DNA of 64,000 nucleotides from Acidobacteriota bacterium (lineage in GTDB: Bacteria; Acidobacteriota; Vicinamibacteria; Vicinamibacterales; CAVVIG01). Positions within the stretch are counted from its first letter, which is position 1; every line of letters begins with the position of its first letter. This document shows positions 2,033-52,800 of the stretch, one piece after another. The notes beneath the pieces are model-generated. The model was not told the origin of the DNA. It was given only the letters and a program-made list of their open reading frames with translations, and made no database searches. Both the position numbers and the translations under genes were made by a program. The stretch covers positions 1 to 64,000 of the forward strand of contig QHWJ01000237.1 in the NCBI GenBank assembly GCA_003222535.1. The letters are read 5' to 3'.

Positions 2033-2097
2033 TTCGCGCCATTATGTACGAAAGGGGGCCGTACCCCTTTTCAGCGTTGTCGCTTACGCCGTCTTGT

Positions 2098-2153
2098 GGG
2101 GGCGACCCTTTCACGCTCGCCGCCTGTTGTAGGGCGACGCTTTCAGGGTCGCC
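2098..2153. repeat. Two REP-like hairpins (ggcgaccctttcacgctcgcc and gtagggcgacgctttcagggtcgcc) between divergent genes
   Basis: Direct reading; same family as 23299-23352, 28200-28400, 40350-40375, 42004-42088. Confidence 0.7.
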
Positions 2154-18230: not shown

Positions 18231-19070
18231 ATGGCGCTCGAAGAGTACAAACGCAAACGCGACTTCAGGAAGACGCCCGAGCCGGAAGGCACGGTCGCCG
18301 CGAAACAGGCGGAACGTGAACGCTTCTTCTGCGTGCAGAAGCATCTGGCGACCCACTTGCACTACGATTTCCGGCTCGAGCACAACGGCGTCCTGTTGTC
18401 GTGGGCCGTACCGAAGGGCCCGTCGCTCGACCCGACGGTCAAGCGGCTCGCAATGAAAGTTGAAGATCACCCGATCGAGTACGGCGAGTTCGAAGGCGTG
18501 ATCCCCGAGGGCTACGGCGCCGGGATCGTGATGCTCTGGGATCGCGGCACGTGGACGTCCGAGACAGGGGATGTCGACCGGGCGCTGACGAAGGGCGACC
18601 TGAAGCTCACGCTGAACGGCTACAAGCTGAAAGGCTCGTGGGTCCTGGTGCGGACCGGCGGGCGCTATGCCCGTGCGCGAGGCGGCGGCGATCGATCGTG
18701 GTTGCTGATCAAGCACCGCGACGACTGGGCGGGTGATCTCGACATCACCGAGTTCGCGCCGCGCAGCGTGAAGAGCGACGGCGACTTCGAGGACATCCTC
18801 GCGGAGGACAACCCCGCGATCTGGCACACGAACCGACCGGCCAAGGGCGGCGAGACCGGTACGATGTTCACCGGGATCATCGAGCGCGCGGCCGCATTGA
18901 AAGCCGCGCGCTCCACAAAGGACACAAAGGTTACAAAGGACACAAAGGTTACAAAGGACACAAAGGTTACCAAGGACACAAAGGTTGCGCGAGAATCAAA
19001 GAAAAAGGCCGTCCCCGCCAGCATGACGTCGAAGACCAAGAGCGGACGGAAACCACCAGGACAGAAGTAG
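18231..19070 (+). CDS. Stand-alone DNA ligase D 3'-phosphoesterase domain protein with repeat-derived basic tail
   Basis: RFFCVQKHLATHLHYDFRLEHNGVLLSWAVPKGPSLDPTVKRLAMKVEDHPIEYGEFEGVIPEGYGAGIVMLWDRGTW; tail TKDTKVTKDTKVTKDTKVTKDTKV. Confidence 0.92.
   Translation: MALEEYKRKRDFRKTPEPEGTVAAKQAERERFFCVQKHLATHLHYDFRLEHNGVLLSWAVPKGPSLDPTVKRLAMKVEDHPIEYGEFEGVIPEGYGAGIVMLWDRGTWTSETGDVDRALTKGDLKLTLNGYKLKGSWVLVRTGGRYARARGGGDRSWLLIKHRDDWAGDLDITEFAPRSVKSDGDFEDILAEDNPAIWHTNRPAKGGETGTMFTGIIERAAALKAARSTKDTKVTKDTKVTKDTKVTKDTKVARESKKKAVPASMTSKTKSGRKPPGQK
18914..18987 (+). repeat. Direct tandem array (ACAAAGGACACAAAGGTT)n within CDS
   Basis: cacaaaggacacaaaggttacaaaggacacaaaggttacaaaggacacaaaggttaccaaggacacaaaggtt; 18-bp period. 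Confidence 0.85.
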
Positions 19071-23298: not shown

Positions 23299-23352
23299 GT
23301 AGGGCGACCCTTTCAGGGTCGCCGAAAGTGTAGGGCGACGCCTTCGCCCTAC
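23299..23352. repeat. Two REP-like hairpins (gtagggcgaccctttcagggtcgcc; gtagggcgacgccttcgccctac)
   Basis: Direct reading, palindromic; same family as 2098-2153. Confidence 0.8.
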
Positions 23353-23411
23353 ATTTTCATCCGCCCTAGTTCCCCGTGGTCAGGGGCGCACCTTCGATGT
23401 GAGACCGTACA

Positions 23412-26961: not shown

Positions 26962-28191
26962 ATGTCGCGACTCTGGCCCCCGCTGGCGCTCGCGTGCGCG
27001 CTCGTCGGCGCGTCCCCTGCGGCGCAACGGCGGCCTGCCCCCGAGCCGATCCTGATTCTGATCTCGTTCGACGGCTGGCGGTGGGACTACATCGATCGCG
27101 TGCCGGCGCCGAACCTGCGAGCGCTCGCCTCGCGCGGCGTCCGCGCGAAGGAGTTGATCCCGTCGTTCCCGTCGTTCACGTTCCCCAACCACTACACGAT
27201 CGTCACCGGGCTGTATCCCCAGCATCACGGCATTGTGGCGAACACCATGGCCGACCCGGGGTTTCCGGAGCGGTTCACGATGTCGTCTGGCACGGCGAAG
27301 GATCCCCGGTGGTGGGGAGGCGAGCCGATCTGGGTCACAGCGTCCCTCCAGGGACGCCGGGCAGCGCCGATGTTCTGGCCGGGGAGCGAGGCCCCCATCC
27401 GCGGCGTGCGGCCCACGTATTGGGTTCCGTTCGATGACAAGGTCACGAACGCCGGGCGCGTGGCGCAGTCGCTCGGCTGGCTGGCGCTGCCTGAATCGCA
27501 GCGGCCGGCGTTCCTCACGGTGTATTTCAGCGAGGTCGATCATGCCGGTCACGACTACGGACCGGAGTCGGCGGAGCTGCGGACGGCGGCGACGCACCTC
27601 GACGAGGCGCTCGGAGGGATCATCGAGGGCGTGAAGCGGCTCGGCCTCGACGATCGGACAACCGTCGTGGTCGTGTCCGATCACGGCATGACGCCGGTCG
27701 CCGACGACCGCCTGATCTTTATCGACGACTACGTCGACTTGCGCCTCGTCGATGTGGTCGAATCGGGCGCGCTGCTCCAGGCGGCGCCGCGAACCGGGAC
27801 TGTTGACGCGATTTACCGGCTGCTGCACGGGAAGAACCCTCATCTCGCGATCTACAAGCGCGAGCAGCTGCCCGCCCGCTTTCACTATCGAAACAACCCC
27901 CGGATTCAGCCGATCGTGGGGGTGCCCGATGAAGGGTGGACGGTGACGACGCACGAAGCGGAAGCCAACCGGAAACCGGACGCGAAGCCGAGACGCGGTG
28001 CGCATGGGTATGACACCAGGCTCCGGTCGATGCACGGTTTGTTCGTCGCCGCCGGACCGCCGATTCGCCGCGGCATCATCGCGGCGCCGTTCGAGAACGT
28101 CCACATCTACGACCTGCTGTGCGCAGTGCTGAAGCTCACGCCTGCAGCTAATGACGGCGATCCGGCGGTCACGCGTCGATTCTTGCGGTGA
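26962..28191 (+). CDS. Alkaline phosphatase family / ectonucleotide pyrophosphatase-phosphodiesterase-like protein
   Basis: PILILISFDGWRWDYIDRVPAPNLRALASRGVRAKELIPSFPSFTFPNHYTIVTGLYPQHHGIVANTMAD...VVVVSDHGMTPV. Confidence 0.92.
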   Translation: MSRLWPPLALACALVGASPAAQRRPAPEPILILISFDGWRWDYIDRVPAPNLRALASRGVRAKELIPSFPSFTFPNHYTIVTGLYPQHHGIVANTMADPGFPERFTMSSGTAKDPRWWGGEPIWVTASLQGRRAAPMFWPGSEAPIRGVRPTYWVPFDDKVTNAGRVAQSLGWLALPESQRPAFLTVYFSEVDHAGHDYGPESAELRTAATHLDEALGGIIEGVKRLGLDDRTTVVVVSDHGMTPVADDRLIFIDDYVDLRLVDVVESGALLQAAPRTGTVDAIYRLLHGKNPHLAIYKREQLPARFHYRNNPRIQPIVGVPDEGWTVTTHEAEANRKPDAKPRRGAHGYDTRLRSMHGLFVAAGPPIRRGIIAAPFENVHIYDLLCAVLKLTPAANDGDPAVTRRFLR

Positions 28192-28199
28192 AGCGCGGC

Positions 28200-28394
28200 G
28201 GCACCGCTGAAGCGGTGCCCTACGTACGGGGGCGCAGCGTGGCACCGCTGAAGCGGTGCCCTACGTACGAAGTGCGTATGGCGTCGCGCGAGGCTGCAAT
28301 GCGTTCGTACGTACGGCGCAGCTTTAGCCGTGCCGCATGTAGGGCGCGGCTTTAGCCGTGCCGTACGGAGGGCGTAGCTTCAGCCGTGCCGCAC
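28200..28394. repeat. Cluster of about five REP-like hairpins between convergent genes
   Basis: Exact 28-bp duplicate ggcaccgctgaagcggtgccctacgtac at 28200-28227 and 28241-28268, followed by three opposite-oriented copies (..ctttagccgtgccgcatgtagggcgcggctttagccgtgccgtacggagggcgtagcttcagccgtgcc). Confidence 0.9.
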
Positions 28395-28435: not shown

Positions 28436-30091
28436 CTAGCGCCTCGGAATCAGCGTGAGCGTCACCTCGGCGTTCGCCTGAACGGCGCGGTCGCTGAACA
28501 CGAGTGCGAAGGAGTCGCCGGCGGCCCAGATCTGTGCGAGATCAGAAAAGTGCGCGCTTTCCGGCGACCCTGCCTGCCCCGGTGCGTTGATCGCGACCGA
28601 ACGATCCCAGTCCGCGGCGTCGAAGGTCGCGCTGAAAGGCGCCCCGGCGTGGGCGCTCGGCGTCAGGGGCCCGACGTTGAACCGTTGTCGTGCGGCGTCG
28701 GTGATGCCGAGCGGATGTGCGAAAACCGCCGCGTCGCTCTGCTGTGCCGGAAGGGCCGCCGCGGGAGCCGCAGTATTGAAGGCGTGCGGCAGATCGTCCA
28801 GTATCCGCCAGCCGGTCCACTCCGACGCTCGGCGGATGGGCACCAGCGCGGCGACTTGAAACCCCCTATTGTGGTCCACGTCCGAATAGAGGATCTTCCG
28901 CGCCGGCATTTTCCATCGTGCGGCGGCTTCGCGGAATTCCGTCCAGGAGCGCGCGCGATCGATGGCCAGCGCGCCCAATTCCGCCGCCGCGCCGGGCTCC
29001 ATTCCGCTCCACCGCACGGTGAACGCCAGGTTCCGCGCGCGGTCCGACGCGACGACAACGCCGTGAGGCGTGTGCTCGATGTCGAAGACGAACGGCTTCG
29101 AACGGCCCTTGACGACGATCGGCTCCTTGACGATCTCGCGAGTCGATTGACCCACCGGCTCGGTGTACACGTCCTCGGTGTCCGCATCGAACGGCGCGGG
29201 ATTCCATGCGATCCGCTCGTTGTGACCGATTGCAACGCCCGGCAGCCACGGGGACGTGGCGCCGATGACGTTCCATCGGGGCGCATTGAGGTGCACCAGA
29301 TACCGGGGCGATGGGTGAGCGAGCGTTCGCGCAGGCTTGGGCGTCGCGGCGTCGGTCGCGTCCGCCTTCAGGCGAACCTGGACGGGTGCGGCGAGGCCTA
29401 CAAAAAACGGCGGCGTCCCGACGCGCCGGATCGCGTCGACGACGACACCGCTCAAGCGCTTTCGGGATGTCTCATCGATCGCATCGCCGCTCGCCACGAA
29501 GGCGTCGGTCCGGTTCAACAGGTCGGCGGGCGCCCAGAGCTCGGGCTTCCATCCCGCGAGGACGAATTCCTCCGGCGGCCGCTCGCGGGCGAGCGTCACC
29601 CATGCGTTGATACCGCCGACGAACGCGGCCGCGATCGTCTTCGCGTCCGGCCCGTAGCTCGCCCACTCCGCGTTGAGATCACCGCGGTACTGTACACGCC
29701 GCGTCATCGCGTCGCGGTCGACGAAGTTCGCGCCGAGCACTTCGGACAGCCGTCCCTGCACTGATCGCCGCCACAGATCCATCTGGAACAACCGGTCCTG
29801 CGCCTGGACGAAGCCTTGCCCGAAGAAAAGATCGTCCTGGTTCTGCGCGTAGATATGCGGCACCCCCCACTTGTCGCGGACGATGCGGACGGGGGCGGAG
29901 AGTCCGGCGGTCTCGAACGTGCCCGAGACTCGAGCCACCAGCGGCGGCGACGGGGGTGGCGCGCGACGGCAGGCGTCGAAGACACAGAGTGGACAGAGGA
30001 CACAGAGAATCAAAAGCCACGGAGACACCGAGACACGGAGATATTTCGAACAGAAGATCAAAAGATCAGGAGTTGTGTCGTTCTTCAACAA
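28436..30091 (-). CDS. Penicillin acylase family protein (start uncertain)
   Basis: APVRIVRDKWGVPHIYAQNQDDLFFGQGFVQAQDRLFQMDLWRR...NVIGATSPWLPGVAIGHNERIAWNPAPFDADTEDVY. Confidence 0.9.
   Translation of the reverse strand: MLKNDTTPDLLIFCSKYLRVSVSPWLLILCVLCPLCVFDACRRAPPPSPPLVARVSGTFETAGLSAPVRIVRDKWGVPHIYAQNQDDLFFGQGFVQAQDRLFQMDLWRRSVQGRLSEVLGANFVDRDAMTRRVQYRGDLNAEWASYGPDAKTIAAAFVGGINAWVTLARERPPEEFVLAGWKPELWAPADLLNRTDAFVASGDAIDETSRKRLSGVVVDAIRRVGTPPFFVGLAAPVQVRLKADATDAATPKPARTLAHPSPRYLVHLNAPRWNVIGATSPWLPGVAIGHNERIAWNPAPFDADTEDVYTEPVGQSTREIVKEPIVVKGRSKPFVFDIEHTPHGVVVASDRARNLAFTVRWSGMEPGAAAELGALAIDRARSWTEFREAAARWKMPARKILYSDVDHNRGFQVAALVPIRRASEWTGWRILDDLPHAFNTAAPAAALPAQQSDAAVFAHPLGITDAARQRFNVGPLTPSAHAGAPFSATFDAADWDRSVAINAPGQAGSPESAHFSDLAQIWAAGDSFALVFSDRAVQANAEVTLTLIPRR
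29351..29392. repeat. VRLKADAT-encoding micro-repeat, in-frame in penicillin acylase 1
   Basis: gtcggtcgcgtccgccttcaggcgaacctggac; encodes VQVRLKADATDA. Confidence 0.5.
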
Positions 30092-30195: not shown

Positions 30196-30690
30196 ATGGC
30201 GATCAAAGACGCTCTGCTGGCCGACTACGATCACGAGATGGGAACGACAAGAAAGCTGCTCGAGCGTCTCCCCGACGACCGACTGTCCTGGAAGCCGCAT
30301 GCGAAATCGATGTCCCTCGGCGGGCTGGCGACGCATCTCAGCACCATCCCGCACTGGGCGGGCACCATCCTGAACGAGCCGTTCTTCGACCTGGCGGGCG
30401 CCCCGCCGAACCAGCCGGAAAGGACGTCACGCGCCGAGCTGCTCGCGGCGTTCGACGAGACGCGGACGCGGACGCGGACGTGGATGGACAAGAGCGACGC
30501 CGAGTACCTGTCGAACTGGACACTGAAGCGCGGCGGTCAGGTGATGTTCTCGGTGCCGCGGGTCTCGGCTTTTCGCAGCTTCGTTCTGCATCACATCATC
30601 CACCATCGCGGGCAGCTGAGCGTCTACCTGCGGTTGAACGACATCCCGGTGCCCGCGATCTACGGTCCGTCGGCCGACGAGGGCTCGTAG
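30196..30690 (+). CDS. DinB family protein
   Basis: LLADYDHEMGTTRKLLERLPDDRLSWKPHAKSMSLGGLATHLSTIP..FVLHHIIHHRGQLSVYLRLNDIPVPAIYGPSADE. Confidence 0.93.
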   Translation: MAIKDALLADYDHEMGTTRKLLERLPDDRLSWKPHAKSMSLGGLATHLSTIPHWAGTILNEPFFDLAGAPPNQPERTSRAELLAAFDETRTRTRTWMDKSDAEYLSNWTLKRGGQVMFSVPRVSAFRSFVLHHIIHHRGQLSVYLRLNDIPVPAIYGPSADEGS

Positions 30691-30759
30691 GGCGGGTAAC
30701 CCATGCGACCTACCCGACCCACGCGACCTACTCGACCCACCAGACCTACTTGACCTCGC
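30688..30759. repeat. 9-bp periodic array (CGACCTACC/CGACCCACG-type) between convergent genes
   Basis: tagggcgggtaacccatgcgacctacccgacccacgcgacctactcgacccaccagacctacttgacctcg. Confidence 0.8.
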
Positions 30760-33157
30760 GGGACCCGCTTGCCGCGCCCGGCAACAGCGTTTGACTCGCC
30801 TCCGTGACCGAATCCACTTTCGCGCGGCTGTAGAAGATCGGGAAGTACTTGTCTCGCGACCAGAGCTCGAAGAGATCGCGGTAATGCGGGCTCGCCGGAT
30901 CGCCGGACTGTCCCGGATTGTTCAAGGCGACCGAGTTGTCCCAGTTCTCGGCGTCCGCGATGATTTTCAGCGAGCCGCCGGACGTCTGATTGTCGGCGTT
31001 CCCCGTTGCACTGACGGTGTAGCCGTCGCCGCCGCGGGGATACGGACCCACGTTCAAGCGGCCGCGCATCTCTGGCGTCGCGATCTCGGCGAGCGGGTGG
31101 CGGATGAGCGCGTGGTGATATTTCTCCTGGCCCCAGCGCCAGGCGCTCAGATCCGGCCCGAGCTTCTTCGTCAGCTCAGCGACCGCTTCCGCCAAGCTGC
31201 GTGACAGGATCTCGTCCCTGCCCTTGACCGGGTCGTCGCCGAACCGTCCGTCCGGCGCGTTCAACCAGTCGATCACCCGCTTCATGCTGGGCTGCCCCAC
31301 AAATGACTGCGCGGCTTTGGGCACGACGAGGGCGCGGACGTTCGCGGTCAGGCGCCGCTGCCACATCTCGTAAATCCCCGCAGCGATGGAATCCGCGTCG
31401 ACGCTGAAGTTCCACTCGAGCAGCATCTGCCGCGCCTTTGTCACGGTTTGCCAGGTGTCTGACGCCGTGGCGGAAGTCGCGACGCCGCGCAAAAGCGGGA
31501 CCAGACTGCGCGCCGGAAGCGACACGTTGTCGTTCTGGAGCCGCATCATGTCGGCAACTGTGTGCAACCGTCCCGACCCCAGCACCTCGCTGATCCGCGA
31601 GACACGATACGGATCCGCGCCTGTGTAATGCAGCGCCTCTTTGTAGGGATAGTCCGGTGGGAACAGATAGTTGTTGGCGGTCGCCACGTAGCCCTTTTCC
31701 GGATTCGCGATGTGCGGCAGGGCGTTGATCGGCAGATAGCCATTCCACTCGTAGCGGCCGTCGCCCGGCACCGGCACAAGGCCCGACCAGTTCGGGCGGA
31801 GCGGCGTGATGGCCACCGCCTGATAGCCGATGTTGCCCTGCCGATCGGCCCAGACCATGTTTTCCGACGGCACGCGGCTGAACGTGCACGCCGCGACGAA
31901 CTCGTCCCAGGTTCTTGCCTGATCCATCCGCAGGCTCGCCAGGTAGGGCGCCGACCCCGGCTCCATCCACGCCGCGCGCAGGGCATACGCTTTGTGATGG
32001 GTCGCATCTTCGGACAGCACCGGCCCGTGCCGAGTGAACTTGAGCGTGACGGCCACCGGCGCTTCGCCCTTCACGGGAATCGTGTCCGCGATCACGCGCA
32101 TGTCCTCCCAGGCGCCACGGTACTTGTACTGATTCGCATTCGCCGGGTTGGTGTCGTACACGTAGAGATCTTCCGTGTCCGACCCGAAGATGGTCAACCC
32201 CCACGCGCCGTACTCATTGTGACCGATCGAAATGCCCGGCAGCACCGGTTCGCCTCCGCCGATCACGTTCCAGCCTGGCGCGACCAGATGCACCCAGTAG
32301 CGCAGCGAAGGGGCGCTCTGGTTGCGATGCGGATCGTTCATCATCAGCGGATAGCCGCTCTGGGTCCGTGCGCCGCTCACCACCCAGTTGTTGCTGCCGA
32401 TGTCCTCGTCCCGCTGGCTCAGCTCGATGGGCGTCGGCTCCTCGGCCGGCGATGCCGAGCCGAACGCAAGCGGCCGCCGGAACGCGTTGTACAGATCGAG
32501 GATCGACGCGTTCAGCAGCGAGAGATCGATCGCCCCATCCGGCGTGATGTCCGGATCGCCCCCCTGAAAGTACTGCAGCTCCTTCACCTTCTCGGCGCCG
32601 AGCACGCGGACGGCCTGCGCGATGTTCAACTCCTGGCCGATGTTGGCGAGCAGCGCGTTGTGCCGCGAGATGACGACATCGGGCGTCCACGGCGCCGGCC
32701 TGATCCCGAGCATGGCGAATTCGACCGGCAGCCCGGACGGATTCGTCAAGGCCCCGGCGATGTACGCGTTCACGCCGCGGACATACGCAGCGATGATCGC
32801 TTCGCCGCGCGGGTGATACCAGTTCAACTCCGCCTTGAGATCGCCGCGGAACATGTGCAGCCGCGTGCCGATGTCGCGCTTCAGCTCCTTGCGGCCGAGG
32901 ATCTCCGCGACCGTGCCGGTCGCCTGGCGGCGCCACAGCTCGAACTGGAACAGCCGATCGCGCGCGGCGGCGTAGCCCTGCGCGAAGAACAGATCGCTCT
33001 CGCTCTTCGCGTAGATGTGATTGATGCCCCAGCGGTCGCGCAGAATCTCGACCGGCTCACGCAGCCCGTCGACACGCAGCGTGGCGCCGGTGGGCGCCGC
33101 GCCGGTCGAGCCGGCGGCCGCAGCCAGGACGACAGCGAAGAAAACCATTTTTCGCAT
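30746..33157 (-). CDS. Penicillin acylase family protein (second copy)
   Basis: EPVEILRDRWGINHIYAKSESDLFFAQGYAAARDRLFQFELWRRQ..GSNNWVVSGARTQSGYPLMMNDPHR..NVIGGGEPVLPGISIGHNEYGAWGLTIF. Confidence 0.93.
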   Translation of the reverse strand: MRKMVFFAVVLAAAAGSTGAAPTGATLRVDGLREPVEILRDRWGINHIYAKSESDLFFAQGYAAARDRLFQFELWRRQATGTVAEILGRKELKRDIGTRLHMFRGDLKAELNWYHPRGEAIIAAYVRGVNAYIAGALTNPSGLPVEFAMLGIRPAPWTPDVVISRHNALLANIGQELNIAQAVRVLGAEKVKELQYFQGGDPDITPDGAIDLSLLNASILDLYNAFRRPLAFGSASPAEEPTPIELSQRDEDIGSNNWVVSGARTQSGYPLMMNDPHRNQSAPSLRYWVHLVAPGWNVIGGGEPVLPGISIGHNEYGAWGLTIFGSDTEDLYVYDTNPANANQYKYRGAWEDMRVIADTIPVKGEAPVAVTLKFTRHGPVLSEDATHHKAYALRAAWMEPGSAPYLASLRMDQARTWDEFVAACTFSRVPSENMVWADRQGNIGYQAVAITPLRPNWSGLVPVPGDGRYEWNGYLPINALPHIANPEKGYVATANNYLFPPDYPYKEALHYTGADPYRVSRISEVLGSGRLHTVADMMRLQNDNVSLPARSLVPLLRGVATSATASDTWQTVTKARQMLLEWNFSVDADSIAAGIYEMWQRRLTANVRALVVPKAAQSFVGQPSMKRVIDWLNAPDGRFGDDPVKGRDEILSRSLAEAVAELTKKLGPDLSAWRWGQEKYHHALIRHPLAEIATPEMRGRLNVGPYPRGGDGYTVSATGNADNQTSGGSLKIIADAENWDNSVALNNPGQSGDPASPHYRDLFELWSRDKYFPIFYSRAKVDSVTEASQTLLPGAASGSREVK

Positions 33158-35706: not shown

Positions 35707-35766
35707 AGGATTTTCTCCTCGGTCATAGTCTAATGATGGACTGTGAAGCTGACGCGCGGCTCAGAG

Positions 35767-35918
35767 ACCCAACCTACTCGACCTATCCGACCTACACAAC
35801 CTACCCAACCTACCCGACCTACCTGACCTACCCGGCCTACCCAACCTACCCGACCTATCCGACCTATCCGACCTATCCGACCTATCCGACCTACTGGACC
35901 TACTGGACCTGCCTGACC
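35767..35918. repeat. 9-bp periodic array (CCGACCTAT/CCTACCCGA) running into the stop codon of the M20 gene
   Basis: acctactcgacctatccgacctacacaacctacccaacctacc...cgacctatccgacctatccgacctatccgacctactggacctactggacctg. Confidence 0.9.
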
Positions 35919-37528
35919 GTGGGATATTTGATCCCGAGCTGCTCGAGGTACGACTTGTACTTCGTCGGATCGTAGTAGTACTTCTTCATCTCAGGCCGGT
36001 ATCGCGCCATCGTCTGCTCATTCAGCCAGATCGCCGGTTTGTCTTCGGGCCGAATCAGCGGAATGTACTTCGTGTTCTTCGTCTGCACATTCCTGAAGTA
36101 GTCCCACGCCTGGGTGACGAGCTCGGGCCTCATCAGGAAATCGAGCACGGTCAGCGCGACGACCTTGGCGCCGGCCTGGATGCCCTTGTGCGCGATGGGC
36201 GTCGCCATCGAGATGGCGTTCGCCCAGTTATGACCGGGCCCGGCCGCCATGTTGGACGGATACCGCAACGTCACTGTCGGCACGTTCCACGAGATGTCGC
36301 CGATATCGTCCGAGCCGCCGCCGCGCTTTTCCTCGTCAGGAACAGACTCGCGGCCCCGCAGCGGCTGGAGCTTCGTGGCCATGCCGACCTCCGGCACCTT
36401 GAGCTCGTGCTGCAGCGCCTTCGCCAGCGTCTGATCGGCCTCGGACCACTGCGGCAGGCCAACTTTCTCGATATTCGCGTGCATCGTTTCCGCGATCGTC
36501 TTGTTGAAATGCCCGGGCCACGCGGAGCCGAGCACCTTCATCGATACGTCCGTGTCGGTCATCATCGAGGCGGCTTTCGCCATCCGATCGCCGATCTCCC
36601 ACATCGCCTTGATGTGCGCGTAGTCGGTTTCGCGGAAGTAGTACCAGACCGACGCGTTCGGTGGGACGACGTTGGGCTGGTCGCCGCCGTTGGTGATGAC
36701 GTAGTGCGACCGCTGCTGAATCCGCAGATGTTCGCGGCGGAAGTTCCAGCCGATGTCCATCAGCTCCGCGGCATCGAGCGCCGACTTGCCGCGCCACGGC
36801 GCGCTGGCGGCGTGCGCGCTTTCGCCCTTGAACGTGTACTCGACCGAGACGAGGCCGTTCTGGTTGCCGTCGCCCCAGCCGACGCCAAGGTTGTCGCCCA
36901 CGTGCGCGAAGATCGAAATGTCGACGTCCCTGAAGACGCCCGCGCGCACGTAGTACGCCTTGGCGCCCACCAATTCTTCGGCGATGCCGGGCCACAGCAT
37001 CAGCGTCCCCTGCAGATGCTGCTGCTCCATGATCTTCTTCACGGCGAGCGCCGCGGCGAGCTGCAGCGGCATCCCGGAGTTGTGTCCCTCGCCGTGGCCG
37101 GGTGCCCCCTCGATGATCGGATCGTGGTACGCCACGCCGGGCTTCTGCGACGCCTGTGGAATGCAGTCGACGTCCGAGCCGAGTGCGATCACCGGCTTGC
37201 CCGACCCCCAGCGTGCGGTCCACGCGGTGGGAATGCCGGCGATCCCCTGCTGGACGGCGAAGCCGTTCTGCTTCAGGATGTCGGTGAGATACTTCGTCGT
37301 CTCGACTTCCTGGAAGCCGAGCTCGCCGAAGCTGAAAACAGAGTCATTCCATTTCTGAATGTTCTCCTGCATCGCGTCGACCTCGAGGCCGACGTTCCGC
37401 TTGTATTGATCCAGCTGCGGGTTGGGGGGCGCAGCGTTCGCGGCCGGCGGCTGGGGCGGCTGCGCCGCGTCAAGGGATACGGCGACGCCGACCGCGGCCG
37501 CCAGTGCTGACCATCTGATGACGCACAT
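35900..37528 (-). CDS. M20 family amidohydrolase (AbgB-like), copy 1
   Basis: VIALGSDVDCIPQASQKPGVAYHDPIIEGAPGHGEGHNSGMPLQLAAALAVKKIM...NVVPPNASVWYYFRETDYAH. Confidence 0.92.
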   Translation of the reverse strand: MCVIRWSALAAAVGVAVSLDAAQPPQPPAANAAPPNPQLDQYKRNVGLEVDAMQENIQKWNDSVFSFGELGFQEVETTKYLTDILKQNGFAVQQGIAGIPTAWTARWGSGKPVIALGSDVDCIPQASQKPGVAYHDPIIEGAPGHGEGHNSGMPLQLAAALAVKKIMEQQHLQGTLMLWPGIAEELVGAKAYYVRAGVFRDVDISIFAHVGDNLGVGWGDGNQNGLVSVEYTFKGESAHAASAPWRGKSALDAAELMDIGWNFRREHLRIQQRSHYVITNGGDQPNVVPPNASVWYYFRETDYAHIKAMWEIGDRMAKAASMMTDTDVSMKVLGSAWPGHFNKTIAETMHANIEKVGLPQWSEADQTLAKALQHELKVPEVGMATKLQPLRGRESVPDEEKRGGGSDDIGDISWNVPTVTLRYPSNMAAGPGHNWANAISMATPIAHKGIQAGAKVVALTVLDFLMRPELVTQAWDYFRNVQTKNTKYIPLIRPEDKPAIWLNEQTMARYRPEMKKYYYDPTKYKSYLEQLGIKYPTVRQVQ

Positions 37529-37552: not shown

Positions 37553-39226
37553 CTATTGCTGTGCCGACGGCTTGGTCGCCGGCTTGACCGTCGTCGGATA
37601 CTTGATCCCGAGCTGCTCGAGGTACGTCTTGTACTTCGTCGGGTCGTAGTAGTACTTCTTCATCTCGGGGCGGTACTTCTCCATCCGTTCCTTGTTCAGC
37701 CAGATGGCCGGCTGGTCCTCGGGACGGATGAGCGGGACGTACTTCTTGTTCTTCGTCTGCACGTTGTTGAAGTAGTCCCACGCCTGCGCGACGAGCTCAG
37801 GGCGCGTGAGGAGATCGAGGATGGTGAGCGCCATGACTTTGGCGCCGTACTGGATGCCTTTGTGCGCGATCGGCGTCGCCATCGAGATCGCGTTGGCCCA
37901 GTTGTGACCCGGGCCAGCCTGCATGTTCGACGGGTAGTTCAGCGTGACCGTCGGGACATTCCACGAAATGTCGCCGATATCGTCGGAGCCGCCGCCGCGC
38001 TTTTCATCGTCGGGGATCACCTCGCGGCCGCGCAGCGGGTTGAGCTTCGTCGCGAGGCCGACCTCGGGCACCTTCAGCTCGTGCTGGAGCGCTTTGGCGA
38101 GCGCGATGTCCGCCTCGCTCCACTGCGGGAGCCCCACTCTCTCGATGTTCGCGTACATGGTCTCGGCAACGGTCTTGTTGAAATGGCCCGGCCACGCCGA
38201 ACCAAGTACGCGCATCGTGTACTCGGTGTCGGTCATCATCGCGGCCGCCTTCGCCATGGTGTTGCCGATGTCCCAGAGCTTCTTGATTTCGTCGTAGCTG
38301 GTCTCGCGGAAGTAGTACCAGACCGACGCGTTCGGCGGGACGACGTTCGGCTGGTCGCCGCCGTTGGGGATGACGTAGTGCGAGCGCTGCTGGAGCCGGA
38401 GATGCTCGCGCCGGAAGTTCCAGCCGATGTCCATCAGCTCAACGGCGTCGAGCGCCGAGCGGCCGCGCCACGGCGCACCGGCGGCGTGCGCGCTTTCGCC
38501 CTTGAAGGTGTACTCGACCGACACCATCCCGTTGCCGCCGCTGTCGCCCCAGCTCACCTGCATGTTCGCCCCGACGTGGGCGAAGATGCAGATGTCGACG
38601 TCCTTGAACGCCCCCGCGCGCACGTAATACGCCTTCGTGCCGAGCAGTTCTTCGGCCACGCCGGGCCAGAGCTTCAGCGTGCCCTGCAGGTGCTGCTGCT
38701 CCATGATCTTCTTGACCGCGAGCGCGGCCGCGATCTGAAGCGGCATGCCGGAGTTGTGTCCTTCGCCGTGGCCCGGCGCGCCTTCGATGATCGGCTCGTG
38801 CCACGCCACACCGGGCTTCTGCGACGCCTGCGGGATGTCGTCGATGTCCGATCCGAGCGCGATGACCGGCTTGCCGGTGCCCCACGTGGCCGTCCACGCC
38901 GTCGGGATCCCTGCGAGATTCTCCTGAATCAAGAAGCCGTTCTGTTTGAGGATGCCCGTGAGGTACTTCGATGTCTCGAATTCCTGAAAACCGGGCTCGG
39001 CGAAACTGAACACCGTGTCGTTCCACTTCTGAATGTTTTCCTGCATGGCGTCGACTTCGAGGCCGACATCGCGCTTGTACTGATCGAGCTTCGGATTGAC
39101 CTGCCCTGAGCTTGTCGAAGGGGGCGCCGCCTGCGCCGTCGCGGCGGCCGGCGGTTGCGGCGCGGCAGCGAGCGAAACAGTGATCGCAGCGGTGAATGCG
39201 ATCAACAACAGTCGGGATGCGCGCAT
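37553..39226 (-). CDS. M20 family amidohydrolase (AbgB-like), copy 2, tandem paralogue
   Basis: MRASRLLLIAFTAAITVSLAAAPQPPAAATAQAAPPSTSSGQVNPKLDQYKRDVGLEVDAMQENIQKWND...; highly similar throughout to 35900-37528. Confidence 0.92.
   Translation of the reverse strand: MRASRLLLIAFTAAITVSLAAAPQPPAAATAQAAPPSTSSGQVNPKLDQYKRDVGLEVDAMQENIQKWNDTVFSFAEPGFQEFETSKYLTGILKQNGFLIQENLAGIPTAWTATWGTGKPVIALGSDIDDIPQASQKPGVAWHEPIIEGAPGHGEGHNSGMPLQIAAALAVKKIMEQQHLQGTLKLWPGVAEELLGTKAYYVRAGAFKDVDICIFAHVGANMQVSWGDSGGNGMVSVEYTFKGESAHAAGAPWRGRSALDAVELMDIGWNFRREHLRLQQRSHYVIPNGGDQPNVVPPNASVWYYFRETSYDEIKKLWDIGNTMAKAAAMMTDTEYTMRVLGSAWPGHFNKTVAETMYANIERVGLPQWSEADIALAKALQHELKVPEVGLATKLNPLRGREVIPDDEKRGGGSDDIGDISWNVPTVTLNYPSNMQAGPGHNWANAISMATPIAHKGIQYGAKVMALTILDLLTRPELVAQAWDYFNNVQTKNKKYVPLIRPEDQPAIWLNKERMEKYRPEMKKYYYDPTKYKTYLEQLGIKYPTTVKPATKPSAQQ
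39099..39119. repeat. 21-bp CTGAGCTTGTCGAA micro-repeat, in-frame in M20 copy 2 and absent from copy 1
   Basis: acctgccctgagcttgtcgaa; encodes STSSGQV. Confidence 0.85.
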
Positions 39227-39256: not shown

Positions 39257-40360
39257 ATGTATGATCGCCCGATGGACGTTTTCGAGCCGCGCGCGTCGCT
39301 GCGCAACGCCCACCGGATGACGCTCTACAGCTGGGGAAACCCCCGGCACTTCCCGCGCCTGCCGGCTCCGACGCGGCGCTACTTCGACGTCGCGCCGGCG
39401 ACACGGGTTGTCGCCGATTGTCATTGGCATGAGCGGCCGTGGGAGCATGTGACGCTCGTCGCGCTGCACGGCCTGAACGGGTCGAGCGAGGCGCACTACA
39501 TGCGCGGGCTTGCCGCGAAGGGCTTCGCGCGCGGGATGAACGTCGTGCGGCTGAACCAGCGCAACTGCGGCGACACCGAACATCTCGCCGAAGGGCTCTT
39601 TCACTCGGGATTGACGGCCGACGCCGCGCACGTGGTCCACGAACTGACGCACATCGACGGGTTGCCGGCGATCGGTGTGGCTGGCTACTCGCTCGGCGGC
39701 AACCTCGCGCTGAAGCTCGCCGGCGAGTACGGCGCGTTCGCGCCGAAGACCGTGCTCGGCGTCGCCGCCGTGTCGCCCATCATCGAGATCAGCGAGTGCA
39801 CACGCGCACTCGAGCGGCCGGGGAACGCGTTGTATCAATGGAATTTCGTCAGGGATTTGAAGCGCCGGATGCGCCGCAAGGAGCGCTTTCATTCCGGGCG
39901 CTTCGATCTGACGAAGCTGAACGCGGTCAGGACCGTCCGCGAGTTCGACGAGACCTACACCGCGCCGTACTTCGGCTTCAGGAACGCCGAGGACTATTAC
40001 CATCGCGCGAGCTCGATGCGCGTGATCGATCGCATCCGCGTCCCGGCGCTCATCATCACCGCCGAGGACGATCCGTTCGTGCCTTCGCGCCCCTTCCACG
40101 ATCCGAAGGTCACCGGGAACCCGCACATCGATCTGAGGGTCAGCCCGCACGGGGGCCACTGCGGCTTCGTCGGCGCGCGCTCGGGCGAGGACGATGGGTA
40201 CTGGGCGGAGAACCGGATTGTCGAGTTCATCTGGGGACTGGGGACTGGGGACGGGTTGCCAGGGACCGGCACTCGGCACCTGCTGCGCGTCGATACCGAC
40301 TCACCACGGTTTCAAAACGTGGAGGGGGACCCTTTTAGGGTCGTCGTGCGGCGAGGCTGA
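39257..40360 (+). CDS. Alpha/beta fold hydrolase (YheT-like); start may be 39272
   Basis: LVALHGLNGSSEAHYMRGLAAKGFARGMNVVRLNQRNCGDTEHLAEGLFHSGLTADAAHVV..GVAGYSLGGNLALKLAGEYG. Confidence 0.88.
   Translation: MYDRPMDVFEPRASLRNAHRMTLYSWGNPRHFPRLPAPTRRYFDVAPATRVVADCHWHERPWEHVTLVALHGLNGSSEAHYMRGLAAKGFARGMNVVRLNQRNCGDTEHLAEGLFHSGLTADAAHVVHELTHIDGLPAIGVAGYSLGGNLALKLAGEYGAFAPKTVLGVAAVSPIIEISECTRALERPGNALYQWNFVRDLKRRMRRKERFHSGRFDLTKLNAVRTVREFDETYTAPYFGFRNAEDYYHRASSMRVIDRIRVPALIITAEDDPFVPSRPFHDPKVTGNPHIDLRVSPHGGHCGFVGARSGEDDGYWAENRIVEFIWGLGTGDGLPGTGTRHLLRVDTDSPRFQNVEGDPFRVVVRRG
40229..40252. repeat. GGGGACT tandem repeat coding the C-terminus of the hydrolase
   Basis: atctggggactggggactggggac; encodes WGLGTGD. 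Confidence 0.65.
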
Positions 40361-40388
40361 AAGCCTCGCCCTACGGTTTTGAAAACCG
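40303..40388. repeat. Cluster of hairpins between convergent genes, including ggcgaggctgaaagcctcgccctacg (40350-40375) and cggttttgaaaaccg (40374-40388)
   Basis: Direct reading of palindromes. Confidence 0.8.
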
Positions 40389-42003: not shown

Positions 42004-42088
42004 GCCGGGCGACTCTGTCGGGGTCGCCGATGGCGGGCCCTGAAATGCCCGCCTTGCAAATGCCGTCCGGCCGAAGCCGGACCCTACG
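42004..42088. repeat. Three consecutive REP-like hairpins ending ...gtccggccgaagccggaccctacg
   Basis: gggcgactctgtcggggtcgcc; ggcgggccctgaaatgcccgcc; gtccggccgaagccggaccctacg. Confidence 0.8.
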
Positions 42089-42791: not shown

Positions 42792-42835
42792 GTTGTCGTT
42801 CCCCGGTCGCTCGCCAGGCTAAAGCGCTCCGATCC

Positions 42836-42884
42836 CCACCCGACCCACGCGACCCACCTGACCCACCTGACCCACCTGAGGGTC
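42836..42884. repeat. 9-bp periodic array (CGACCCACC/TGACCCACC) between divergent genes
   Basis: ccacccgacccacgcgacccacctgacccacctgacccacctgagggtc. Confidence 0.85.
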
Positions 42885-42909
42885 GTTGGTCGACTGTAAA
42901 CTAGGTGAC

Positions 42910-45373: not shown

Positions 45374-46108
45374 GTGACTCAGGGGCCGCGCCCGACGTTG
45401 CGCGTCGCGACCTACAACATCCATCGCTGCCGCGGCATCGACGGCCGCACGCGTCCGGAGCGGATCGCCTCGGTGCTCCGCGCGGTAGACGCGGACGTGG
45501 TCGCGCTGCAGGAGGTCGTCGGCGCCGGGCCTCGCGGCGGCGGGCACGCGGAAGCGATCGGCGCTTCGCTCGGCATGGGGTGGGTGATGGCGCCGGCGCG
45601 GCAGTTTCGCGGTCACCAGTTCGGCAATGCGGTGCTCAGCCGGCTGCCGATCACGCAGCATCTCGCGCACGACCTGTCATGGAAGACGTGCGAGCCGCGC
45701 CACATGCAGCGCGTGGACATCTCGGCCCACGGCACCACGCTGCACCTGTACAACGTGCATCTCGGCACGGCGATCCTCGAACGGCGCAGCCAGGCGCGGC
45801 GGCTGGCGATCATCGTGTGCGACCGCCACGTCACCGGTCCGAAGCTGGTGCTCGGTGATTTCAACGAATGGATGCGCGGACTGGCGACCTCGCTGCTGAA
45901 CGAGAAGCTCAGCAGCGTGGACCTGCGGGATTTTCTCCGGCGCAAGCGGACACAGAGGACCTATCCCGGCCTCTTCCCCATCCTGCACCTCGATCGTATC
46001 TACTACGCCGGACGCGTCGAAGTCGTCGCCGTCGAGCTGCCCCGCACGCGCCTGTCGCTCGTCGCCTCGGATCATCTGCCGCTGGTGGCCGATGTCAGGC
46101 TGGGCTAG
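45374..46108 (+). CDS. Endonuclease/exonuclease/phosphatase family protein
   Basis: LRVATYNIHRCRGIDGRTRPERIASVLRAVDADVVALQEV..LVLGDFNEW..HLDRIYYAG..SDHLPLVADVRL; GTG start 45374. Confidence 0.9.
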   Translation: MTQGPRPTLRVATYNIHRCRGIDGRTRPERIASVLRAVDADVVALQEVVGAGPRGGGHAEAIGASLGMGWVMAPARQFRGHQFGNAVLSRLPITQHLAHDLSWKTCEPRHMQRVDISAHGTTLHLYNVHLGTAILERRSQARRLAIIVCDRHVTGPKLVLGDFNEWMRGLATSLLNEKLSSVDLRDFLRRKRTQRTYPGLFPILHLDRIYYAGRVEVVAVELPRTRLSLVASDHLPLVADVRLG

Positions 46109-46346
46109 CAGGGCGGATAGGCCAGGGAGGTCACATAGGTCGGGTAGGCTAGGTGGGTCTGGTAGGTCGGGTGGGTCGGGTAGGTCGCGTAGCGCAGTCG
46201 GTCGGGTAGGGCAGGTAGGTCAGGTGGGTCAGGTGGGTCGCGTAGCGCAGTCGGTCGGGTAGGGCAGGTAGGTCAGGTGGGTCGCGTAGGGCACGTCGGT
46301 CGGGTAGGACAGGTAGGTCGGGTCGGTCGCGTAGGACGGGTGGGAT
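46109..46346. repeat. Long 9-bp periodic array (GGTCGGGTA/GGTCAGGTG...) with a 54-bp (6 x 9) higher-order duplication, between convergent genes
   Basis: ggtcgcgtagcgcagtcggtcgggtagggcaggtaggtcaggtgggtc occurs at 46183 and 46237 (54-bp spacing). Confidence 0.92.
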
Positions 46347-46401
46347 GCCCCACCGGACTTACGCGGCCGGGGATTCGTTTAGAGTCGACGGGCGCCGGCC
46401 T

Positions 46402-52200: not shown

Positions 52201-52800
52201 TCATACTACAGGCGGGCCCGAAGACCCGCGCTCCAAAAGAGACTTAATCTCGTGTTCGAACGCGTCTTTCGACGAGAGCCCCGTGTGCTTGGTGCACATC
52301 CGCCCGTCGCGCGAAATCAGGACCGTGACCGGAATGCCGAAAATCGGACCGAAGGCGTCCTGCAGGTCGTCATGATCGAGCCCCTGCAGGACCAGATAGT
52401 TCATTTTCATCTGCGCGACGTACGGTTTGAGCTTGTCGATCGTGTCGTCCACCGACACGCCGACGACCTGCAAGCCGTCCTTGCCGTACTTCTGCTGGAA
52501 CTCGATGAACCAGGGAATCTCGATCTTGCACGGGCCGCACCAGGTGGCCCAGAAGTCGAGCAGCACCACCTTGCCCTTCAGCGACGCCAGCGGCACCTCC
52601 GTGTTGTTGATGTCCTTGAGGGTGAAGTTCAGGTTCGCCGGTTTCGCCGCCGCGGGGCAGGCGTAGGTTGCCGGCGCCCCGGTCGGGGCCGCCGAAGCCT
52701 CGTCCCGATGGAAGCCCCACTCCGGCGTCGCGTTCAGCGTCAGCAGCGCCAGCGCGAGGGCGCCAACCGCTGCGATCGCCCATCGAATGCTCATGTGCAT
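52201..52800 (-). CDS. TlpA/ResA family thiol-disulfide oxidoreductase
   Basis: FTLKDINNTEVPLASLKGKVVLLDFWATWCGPCKIEIPWFIEFQQKYGKDGLQVVGVSVDD. Confidence 0.95.
   Translation of the reverse strand: MHMSIRWAIAAVGALALALLTLNATPEWGFHRDEASAAPTGAPATYACPAAAKPANLNFTLKDINNTEVPLASLKGKVVLLDFWATWCGPCKIEIPWFIEFQQKYGKDGLQVVGVSVDDTIDKLKPYVAQMKMNYLVLQGLDHDDLQDAFGPIFGIPVTVLISRDGRMCTKHTGLSSKDAFEHEIKSLLERGSSGPPVV

Follow-up and report, generated by a model that had tools for sequence, protein, structure and literature searches.

The hairpins in the window, which is the whole 64,000-nucleotide stretch of Acidobacteriota DNA analysed here (order Vicinamibacterales, contig QHWJ01000237.1), are scattered copies of a known type of bacterial repeat, the REP, which travels with a single-strand DNA transposase; this identification is well supported. 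They are very probably GTAG REPs carried as non-autonomous passengers of Y1/HUH RAYTs, with the head and loop being recognised and the paired stem left to drift. Their sequence anatomy, copy numbers, covariation, association with RAYT genes and orientation rule were read directly from the DNA.

Hairpins of the window and REP classes of the genome

The six hairpins of the original prediction, described as a family with interchangeable stems and a constant loop and tail, were all found at their coordinates (marked p in Table 1). Read on the opposite strand, they are REP elements headed by GTAG, with a loop of TTYA, TTTYA or TTCG and a stem of 7-8 bp, so that the tail CCTAC described earlier is the reverse complement of the 5' GTAG head. 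The stem starts directly after the head, except in class B, where one base lies between them. A scan of the window for a head, a 7-9 bp stem and a TTYA/TTTYA-type loop gave seven matches, while 100 dinucleotide-shuffled versions averaged 0.02 and never had more than 1; the seventh match, at 52234 (-), may have arisen by chance.

Table 1. REP elements of the window and genes flanking the class A cluster (p, hairpin of the original prediction)
Feature	Position	Strand	Sequence or family	Remarks
Degenerate REP class C	2096..2121	+	head GTGG	repeat family D10
REP class C, one mismatch	2129..2153	+	GTAG GGCGACGC-TTTCA-GGGTCGCC	
REP class C	23299..23323	+	GTAG GGCGACCC-TTTCA-GGGTCGCC	p
Type I phosphodiesterase gene	26962..28191	+	Pfam PF01663	flanks class A cluster
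REP class A	28200..28223	-	GGCACCGC-TTCA-GCGGTGCC	p; head GTAG at 28220-28223
REP class A	28241..28264	-		p; stem and loop identical to 28200 copy
Degenerate REP class A	28311..28334	+	head GTAC, GGCGCAGC-TTTA-GCCGTGCC	repeat family D12
REP class A	28339..28362	+	GTAG GGCGCGGC-TTTA-GCCGTGCC	p; one G.T
Degenerate REP class A	28367..28390	+	head GGAG, GGCGTAGC-TTCA-GCCGTGCC	repeat family D12
Penicillin amidase family gene	28436..30091	-	PF01804	flanks class A cluster
Degenerate REP class C	40321..40345	+	head GGAG, GGGGACCC-TTTTA-GGGTCGTC	repeat family D10
REP class C	40350..40374	-	GTAG GGCGAGGC-TTTCA-GCCTCGCC	p
REP class B	42065..42087	-	GTAG-G-GTCCGGC-TTCG-GCCGGAC	p

The main class A cluster (28200-28390) sits between converging phosphodiesterase and penicillin amidase genes, and its copy at 28339 has the reverse orientation and another upper stem (GCGGC vs ACCGC) relative to the copies at 28200 and 28241. 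The region 40321-40374 is a class C dimer with 40321 as the left and 40350 as the right partner, and here also the upper stems differ (GACC vs GAGG).

The source assembly comprises 8.06 Mb in 450 contigs and is 95.5% complete. The REP-like character of the predicted family held, while its unity did not: at least three classes occur in the genome, namely A (GGC... stem, loop TTYA), B (GTCCGGC, TTYA) and C (GGCGACCC, TTTYA), and part of the stem variety therefore lies between classes; a further part lies between the left and the right member of a REP pair. The 133 called REPs were distributed among class A (80), class C (26), class B (20) and others (7). The exact class A pattern, GTAGGGC-N4-C-TTYA-G-N4-GCC, was present in 131 copies genome-wide (63 with TTCA and 68 with TTTA) and its reversed form in none, although sequence reversal is a poor control, as it turns GTAG into the much commoner GATG, and permuted heads were used instead. 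Gene context was obtained for 126 of these copies from codon-usage gene calls made here, not from annotation; 36 of the 126 lay within called genes, while 80.5% of the DNA was called coding. Among the 133 REPs there were 39 neighbour pairs less than 150 bp apart, 16 of them in opposite orientation. The elements thus show the features by which GTAG REPs are recognised: a head (5' GTAG, or GTGG/GGAG) directly 5' of a palindrome, a foldable GC-rich unit of 20-40 nt, dispersed intergenic copies, and inverted doublets or clusters.

Several other repeats were observed in the window. A palindrome at 23329-23353, TGTAGGGCGA-CGCCT-TCGCCCTACA, resembles two REP heads fused together with the middle parts lost. 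Degenerate tandem arrays of a 9-base unit of the CGACCTACC type, on either strand, were found at four distant sites (30685-30783, 35749-35928, 42826-42888 and 46084-46352), and another 9-base array, ACAAAGGAC/ACAAAGGTT, at 18897-19004 and, in weaker form, around 29975 and 62664. A 300-base duplication with 84% identity (35918-36217 and 37592-37891) lies within two adjacent minus-strand reading frames, and a second gene of the penicillin-amidase family (30746-33157, -) neighbours the one that flanks the class A cluster.

Compensatory variation of the stems

Compensatory change of the stem under a fixed head and loop, the central claim of the original prediction, was borne out by an excess of pairing and by covariation. 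Class A alone presented 28 combinations of the inner four pairs among its 131 copies, rather than the one or two stem sequences that would have spoken against the claim. With G.T allowed, 120 of the 131 copies were fully paired, compared with a mean of 56.3 and a maximum of 70 when the arms were re-paired at random 2000 times. In 1.70 Mb of the same genome, GTAG-N8-TTYA-N8 anchors collected without a structure filter had at least six of seven inner Watson-Crick pairs in 97 of 127 cases, and control heads in 0/12, 0/41, 1/15, 1/81, 0/30 and 2/48. As to control loops, T[CT]TA was unusable because it includes TTTA itself, and TT[AG]A recovered a few REP-like TTGA/TTAA forms (6/13 in this genome).

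A covariation set of 110 GTAG-headed sequences out of 158 found, to which the structure filter was not applied, had 91.0% of its cells paired (61.9% after shuffling), both sides changed in 232 cells (65.2 after shuffling) and a covariation score of 0.736 (0.201 after shuffling); none of 500 shuffles reached the observed values of pairing, both-sided change or score, and slid controls were 25-44% paired. The closing pair was C-G in 100 of the 110 sequences, and pairs 4-7 were the most variable.

Comparison of 8-bp REPs within a RAYT locus (27 stem pairs) gave differences at positions 1-8 of 0, 4, 0, 7, 48, 44, 59 and 0%, and between loci of 61, 19, 36, 66, 67, 53, 62 and 0%, the zero at position 8 being built in, since the arms were chosen to end in C. 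Lower-half differences occurred at 2/10 loci and upper-half differences at 9/10; in these 10 loci, which represent few lineages, the lower half of the 8-bp stem follows the RAYT and the upper half is free to change. As a general rule, a fixed lower and a free upper zone was rejected, because it fails for 9-bp stems, in which the lower half differed at 8/11 loci and the upper half at 9/11. Stem type clustered by locus to some degree, with neighbouring class A copies sharing base pairs 5-7 in 27 of 33 pairs when 22 were expected.

Part of this variety could come from several independently acquired REP families being lumped together, as there are three classes in one genome and, in a maximum-likelihood tree of RAYTs, stems are alike within subclades. 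This explanation accounts for a part of the variation and is partly refuted by the variety within classes, since class A alone has 16 paired stem types and two to four stems occur at a single RAYT locus; it is doubtful as the source of the whole.

On the GTAG strand, the distinct single non-Watson-Crick inner pairs were 34 G.T/T.G and 12 A.C/C.A (p = 0.0016), or 25 and 6 in the RAYT loci alone, numbers that are softer than they look because the copies share ancestry; the outermost pair of the classes with a spacer base was left out of this count. Pair 4 of class A was A-T in 60 copies, G.T in 51, C-G in 13 and G-C in 4, and its G.T occurred beside several upper stems. Such an excess of G.T is expected of change by one step at a time under selection on the GTAG strand, and the relevant fold seems to be that of the GTAG-strand DNA.

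The original prediction had also suggested joint rewriting of the two arms. A mechanism of this kind could be template switching in replication, with one arm of the palindrome serving as template for the other. Rewriting of this kind would suit the many stem differences from C-G to G-C, which require two transversions. It would also suit the rarity of mismatched class A copies (10/126), which were not enriched for bridges between two stems (2/10 types, with 43% expected of random single mutants); these intermediates are too few, so that a simple stepwise path is not supported. However, 15 of the 16 paired types of class A can be connected to each other through wobble steps or exchanges of a single base pair, arm copying would not yield more G.T than A.C on the GTAG strand, and a fixed head and loop need recognition and not arm repair alone. 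Compensatory change, with recognition of the single strand, is enough to account for the pattern; rewriting of both arms is not needed, and we consider it unlikely.

RAYT genes, their remnants and the strand that folds

A RAYT-type Y1 transposase, whose presence the original prediction had left to be checked, was found as one protein genome-wide in a Pfam Y1 search. This intact RAYT (contig C216, locus L104) matched the REP-associated tyrosine transposase model NF047646 with 101.7 bits (cut-off 80), and both histidines of HUH and the tyrosine of Y..NP are invariant in A1. By sequence profile the best solved relative was 4er8, TnpArep, the E. coli protein. The hairpin upstream of the gene, GTGG-C-GTCCGAC-TTCA-GTCGGAC, and the one downstream, of the GTCCGGC type and in opposite orientation, assign it to class B. 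Flanking of a RAYT gene by its own REPs was thus seen on both sides for class B, and classes A and C were found only beside remnants.

The NF047646 search added two fragments: C169:55531-55680, which has class A REPs on either side, and C448:41275-41403, which has a class C REP nearby. Each retains WQ and Y..NP motifs; the 500-800 bases examined contained no match to HUH. The RAYT nearest to the class C remnant was that of L103, by a small margin (71.2 bits, the following two RAYTs scoring 68.2 and 67.0), and its REPs have the 5-base loop TTTCA, as in class C. The RAYT nearest to the class A remnant was that of L096 (GCCGGGTC), which is not a GGC-stem RAYT. Upstream of the class A remnant there is a run of shortened elements (L122:3101-3450), GGGCGCC-GTACGTA-GGGCGCC, without loop and 3' arm.

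Class A, the commonest class here, is without an intact RAYT in this assembly, which is incomplete (95.5%), so that an intact RAYT of class A or C may be missing from it. Classes A and C would appear to have lost their enzymes and are perhaps immobile now. One intact RAYT together with two remnants makes a useful case, in which REP populations may outlive their enzyme.

Related loci were found well beyond this genome. Among 60 genomes searched, 42 had a RAYT match, and 22, including this one, had the GGC pattern with differing inner stems, a pattern restricted to a single stem type. In named genomes, 80 loci were detected by scanning, many of them in Acidobacteria, with others in Planctomycetes (Scalindua, Brocadiaceae), Chloroflexi, Deltaproteobacteria and further groups. 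Removal of 18 duplicate proteins, 8 further short ones (<110 residues) and 25 scoring <130 bits to the clade profile reduced 136 RAYT loci to a core of 85. At 50 of the 85 core loci, a hairpin with a head, an 8/9-bp stem and a loop of 4 bases lay within 700 bp. All 4-base loops were scanned, and the loop was TTYA at 42 of these 50, followed by TTTC and TTTT with 3 loci each. On this sequence evidence, the loop TTNA is conserved while the stem varies, the 42 loci having 57 different 5' arms; permuted-head controls gave TTYA hairpins at 0-4 loci. Under the filters used, 43 of the 85 core loci had no TTYA hairpin within 700 bp; L104 itself was scored as 'other', since the one-base spacer of its REPs falls outside the hairpin filter. 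In the tree, made by a quick maximum-likelihood method with many weakly supported branches, TTYA occurred in the basal rows and onward to the tips, and clustering of the loop label was not significant.

At the RAYT loci, 5' arms were identical in 148 of 197 pairs of hairpins in the same orientation and in 65 of 178 pairs in opposite orientation. The link between orientation and stem was positive at 15 of 19 loci and reversed at 2, and 0 of 2000 within-locus permutations reached the observed value, although tandem duplication inflates the sharing of arms between copies of the same orientation. Perfect hairpins occurred in both orientations at 18 loci, and at 12 of these the two orientations had no stem in common. 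The rule was weak or marginal in the genome under study (p = 0.054), where some inverted pairs of class A have identical stems. Trial folds of two RAYT-locus stretches gave, in one of them, a longer hairpin joining two REPs of the same orientation, and were not used as evidence.

These data could be read, tentatively and with the odds against it, as showing that selection keeps the upper stems of left and right REPs different, as labels of the two ends, with head, loop and lower stem in common. If so, the two ends could not pair into one long hairpin and each would fold for the transposase, and the stem variety would be a maintained diversity, beyond tolerated drift.

Binding of gyrase, IHF or nucleoid proteins has been proposed for BIMEs, and roles of this kind are ascribed to E. 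coli REPs. The hairpins might likewise be DNA sites that the host selects and maintains, with no connection to mobility, a reading that would agree with their intergenic clusters and with the abundance of class A despite its RAYT being a remnant only. It leaves unexplained why the REP class beside each RAYT differs, and why head and loop are common across phyla with unrelated stems, and is improbable.

It is more improbable still that the hairpins act in RNA, as terminators or mRNA stabilisers whose pairing is kept by selection on transcripts: G.T pairs were taken as a sign of RNA function by Di Nocera and colleagues (PMC3733652), copies are intergenic (19/126 between converging genes) and sense copies were slightly richer in G.T than antisense ones (15/28 vs 7/23, p = 0.16), but with one copy per array the counts were 5/15 and 4/13 (p = 1.0), the 54 copies between same-direction genes were oriented 28 with and 26 against transcription, antisense class A copies, related by descent as they are, had 13 G.T and 0 A.C at pair 4 though only A.C gives a wobble in the transcript, and there was no Rfam match within the window. 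The strand bias of G.T provides a sequence-only test between a role of REPs in RNA and one in single-stranded DNA.

The preferred reading, GTAG REPs as passengers of RAYTs, can be put as a mechanism. The RAYT would act on the GTAG strand in single-stranded form, where it would recognise the GTAG head, the loop with its closing pair (C-TTYA-G) and a short stem that is intact. Within 8-bp stems, the enzyme would take little notice of pairs 5-7, and the four lower pairs would follow the RAYT lineage. Changes in the stem would consequently survive if pairing is kept, with head and loop remaining fixed, and drift would proceed stepwise, often via G.T wobbles. The REPs would occur as left and right partners whose upper stems tend to differ and whose loop is the same, and the three classes would coexist, B with its intact RAYT, and A and C beside RAYT remnants. 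Both the reading of head, loop and stem by the RAYT and the mobility of the REPs are what we infer from these patterns.

Comparison with known REP systems

No account of these repeats in Vicinamibacterales was found in searches of the open-access literature (REPIN/RAYT/Acidobacteriota since 2018; Vicinamibacter; RAYT with REP and Acidobacteria), and the present elements extend the GTAG REP/RAYT system to Acidobacteriota. The closest description is that of the GTAG families of REPs (Di Nocera et al. 2013, PMC3733652), which, in the portion of that text available, include sub-families with alternative complementary stem residues. They share with the elements described here the GTAG terminus, stems of 6-9 bp, short loops that in many cases fit TY (equivalent to TTYA when the closing T-A pair is counted into the loop), dimers including heterodimers, and repeat-specific RAYTs where several families coexist. 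The consensus list of that paper may already include a family with these stems. In contrast, the same portion ties Acidobacteria to TIR-flanked transposases and not to GTAG REPs, and it reads G.T as a sign of RNA function, whereas here G.T follows the GTAG strand. It gives no obvious explanation for heterodimers with different stems, for which the left/right stem rule offers a testable reason. This rule and the strand bias of the wobbles are the parts worth following up.

REPINs and the REP-RAYT systems of Stenotrophomonas and Pseudomonas, as far as described in the available parts of PMC2817692 and PMC3686654, are similar in having inverted REPs on either side of a RAYT gene, copies that are dispersed, and inverted doublets, and differ in belonging to another phylum. 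The E. coli REP/BIME system (y and z types) and its TnpA_REP (4er8) are similar in transposase family by sequence profile and in the pairing of REP types in mosaics. E. coli REPs differ in their long bulged stems and, according to the accessible text of PMC8266576, in a loop without sequence selection.

The Marinomonas REPtron Mb, a group 3 system (PMC8266576, 2021), has a short perfect palindrome, a loop TTTA, a GTAG head on the processed strand, and a need for a paired stem whose sequence is mostly tolerant, all of which resemble the present elements; its 5-bp stem lies two bases from GTAG, while here stems of 8-9 bp follow the head directly (7 bp after one base in class B). In the part of that work available, RAYT is a strand-specific enzyme, and TnpA_Mb requires T12, T13 and A15 of the loop but accepts any base at position 14; mismatches in the stem impair it, changes at stem positions 2-3 are tolerated, and changes at position 4 reduce cleavage. 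The natural stem and loop pattern, as judged from sequence comparison, matches this group 3 RAYT biochemistry, and is the natural counterpart, over several phyla, of the TTNA-loop reading by a group 3 RAYT in vitro.
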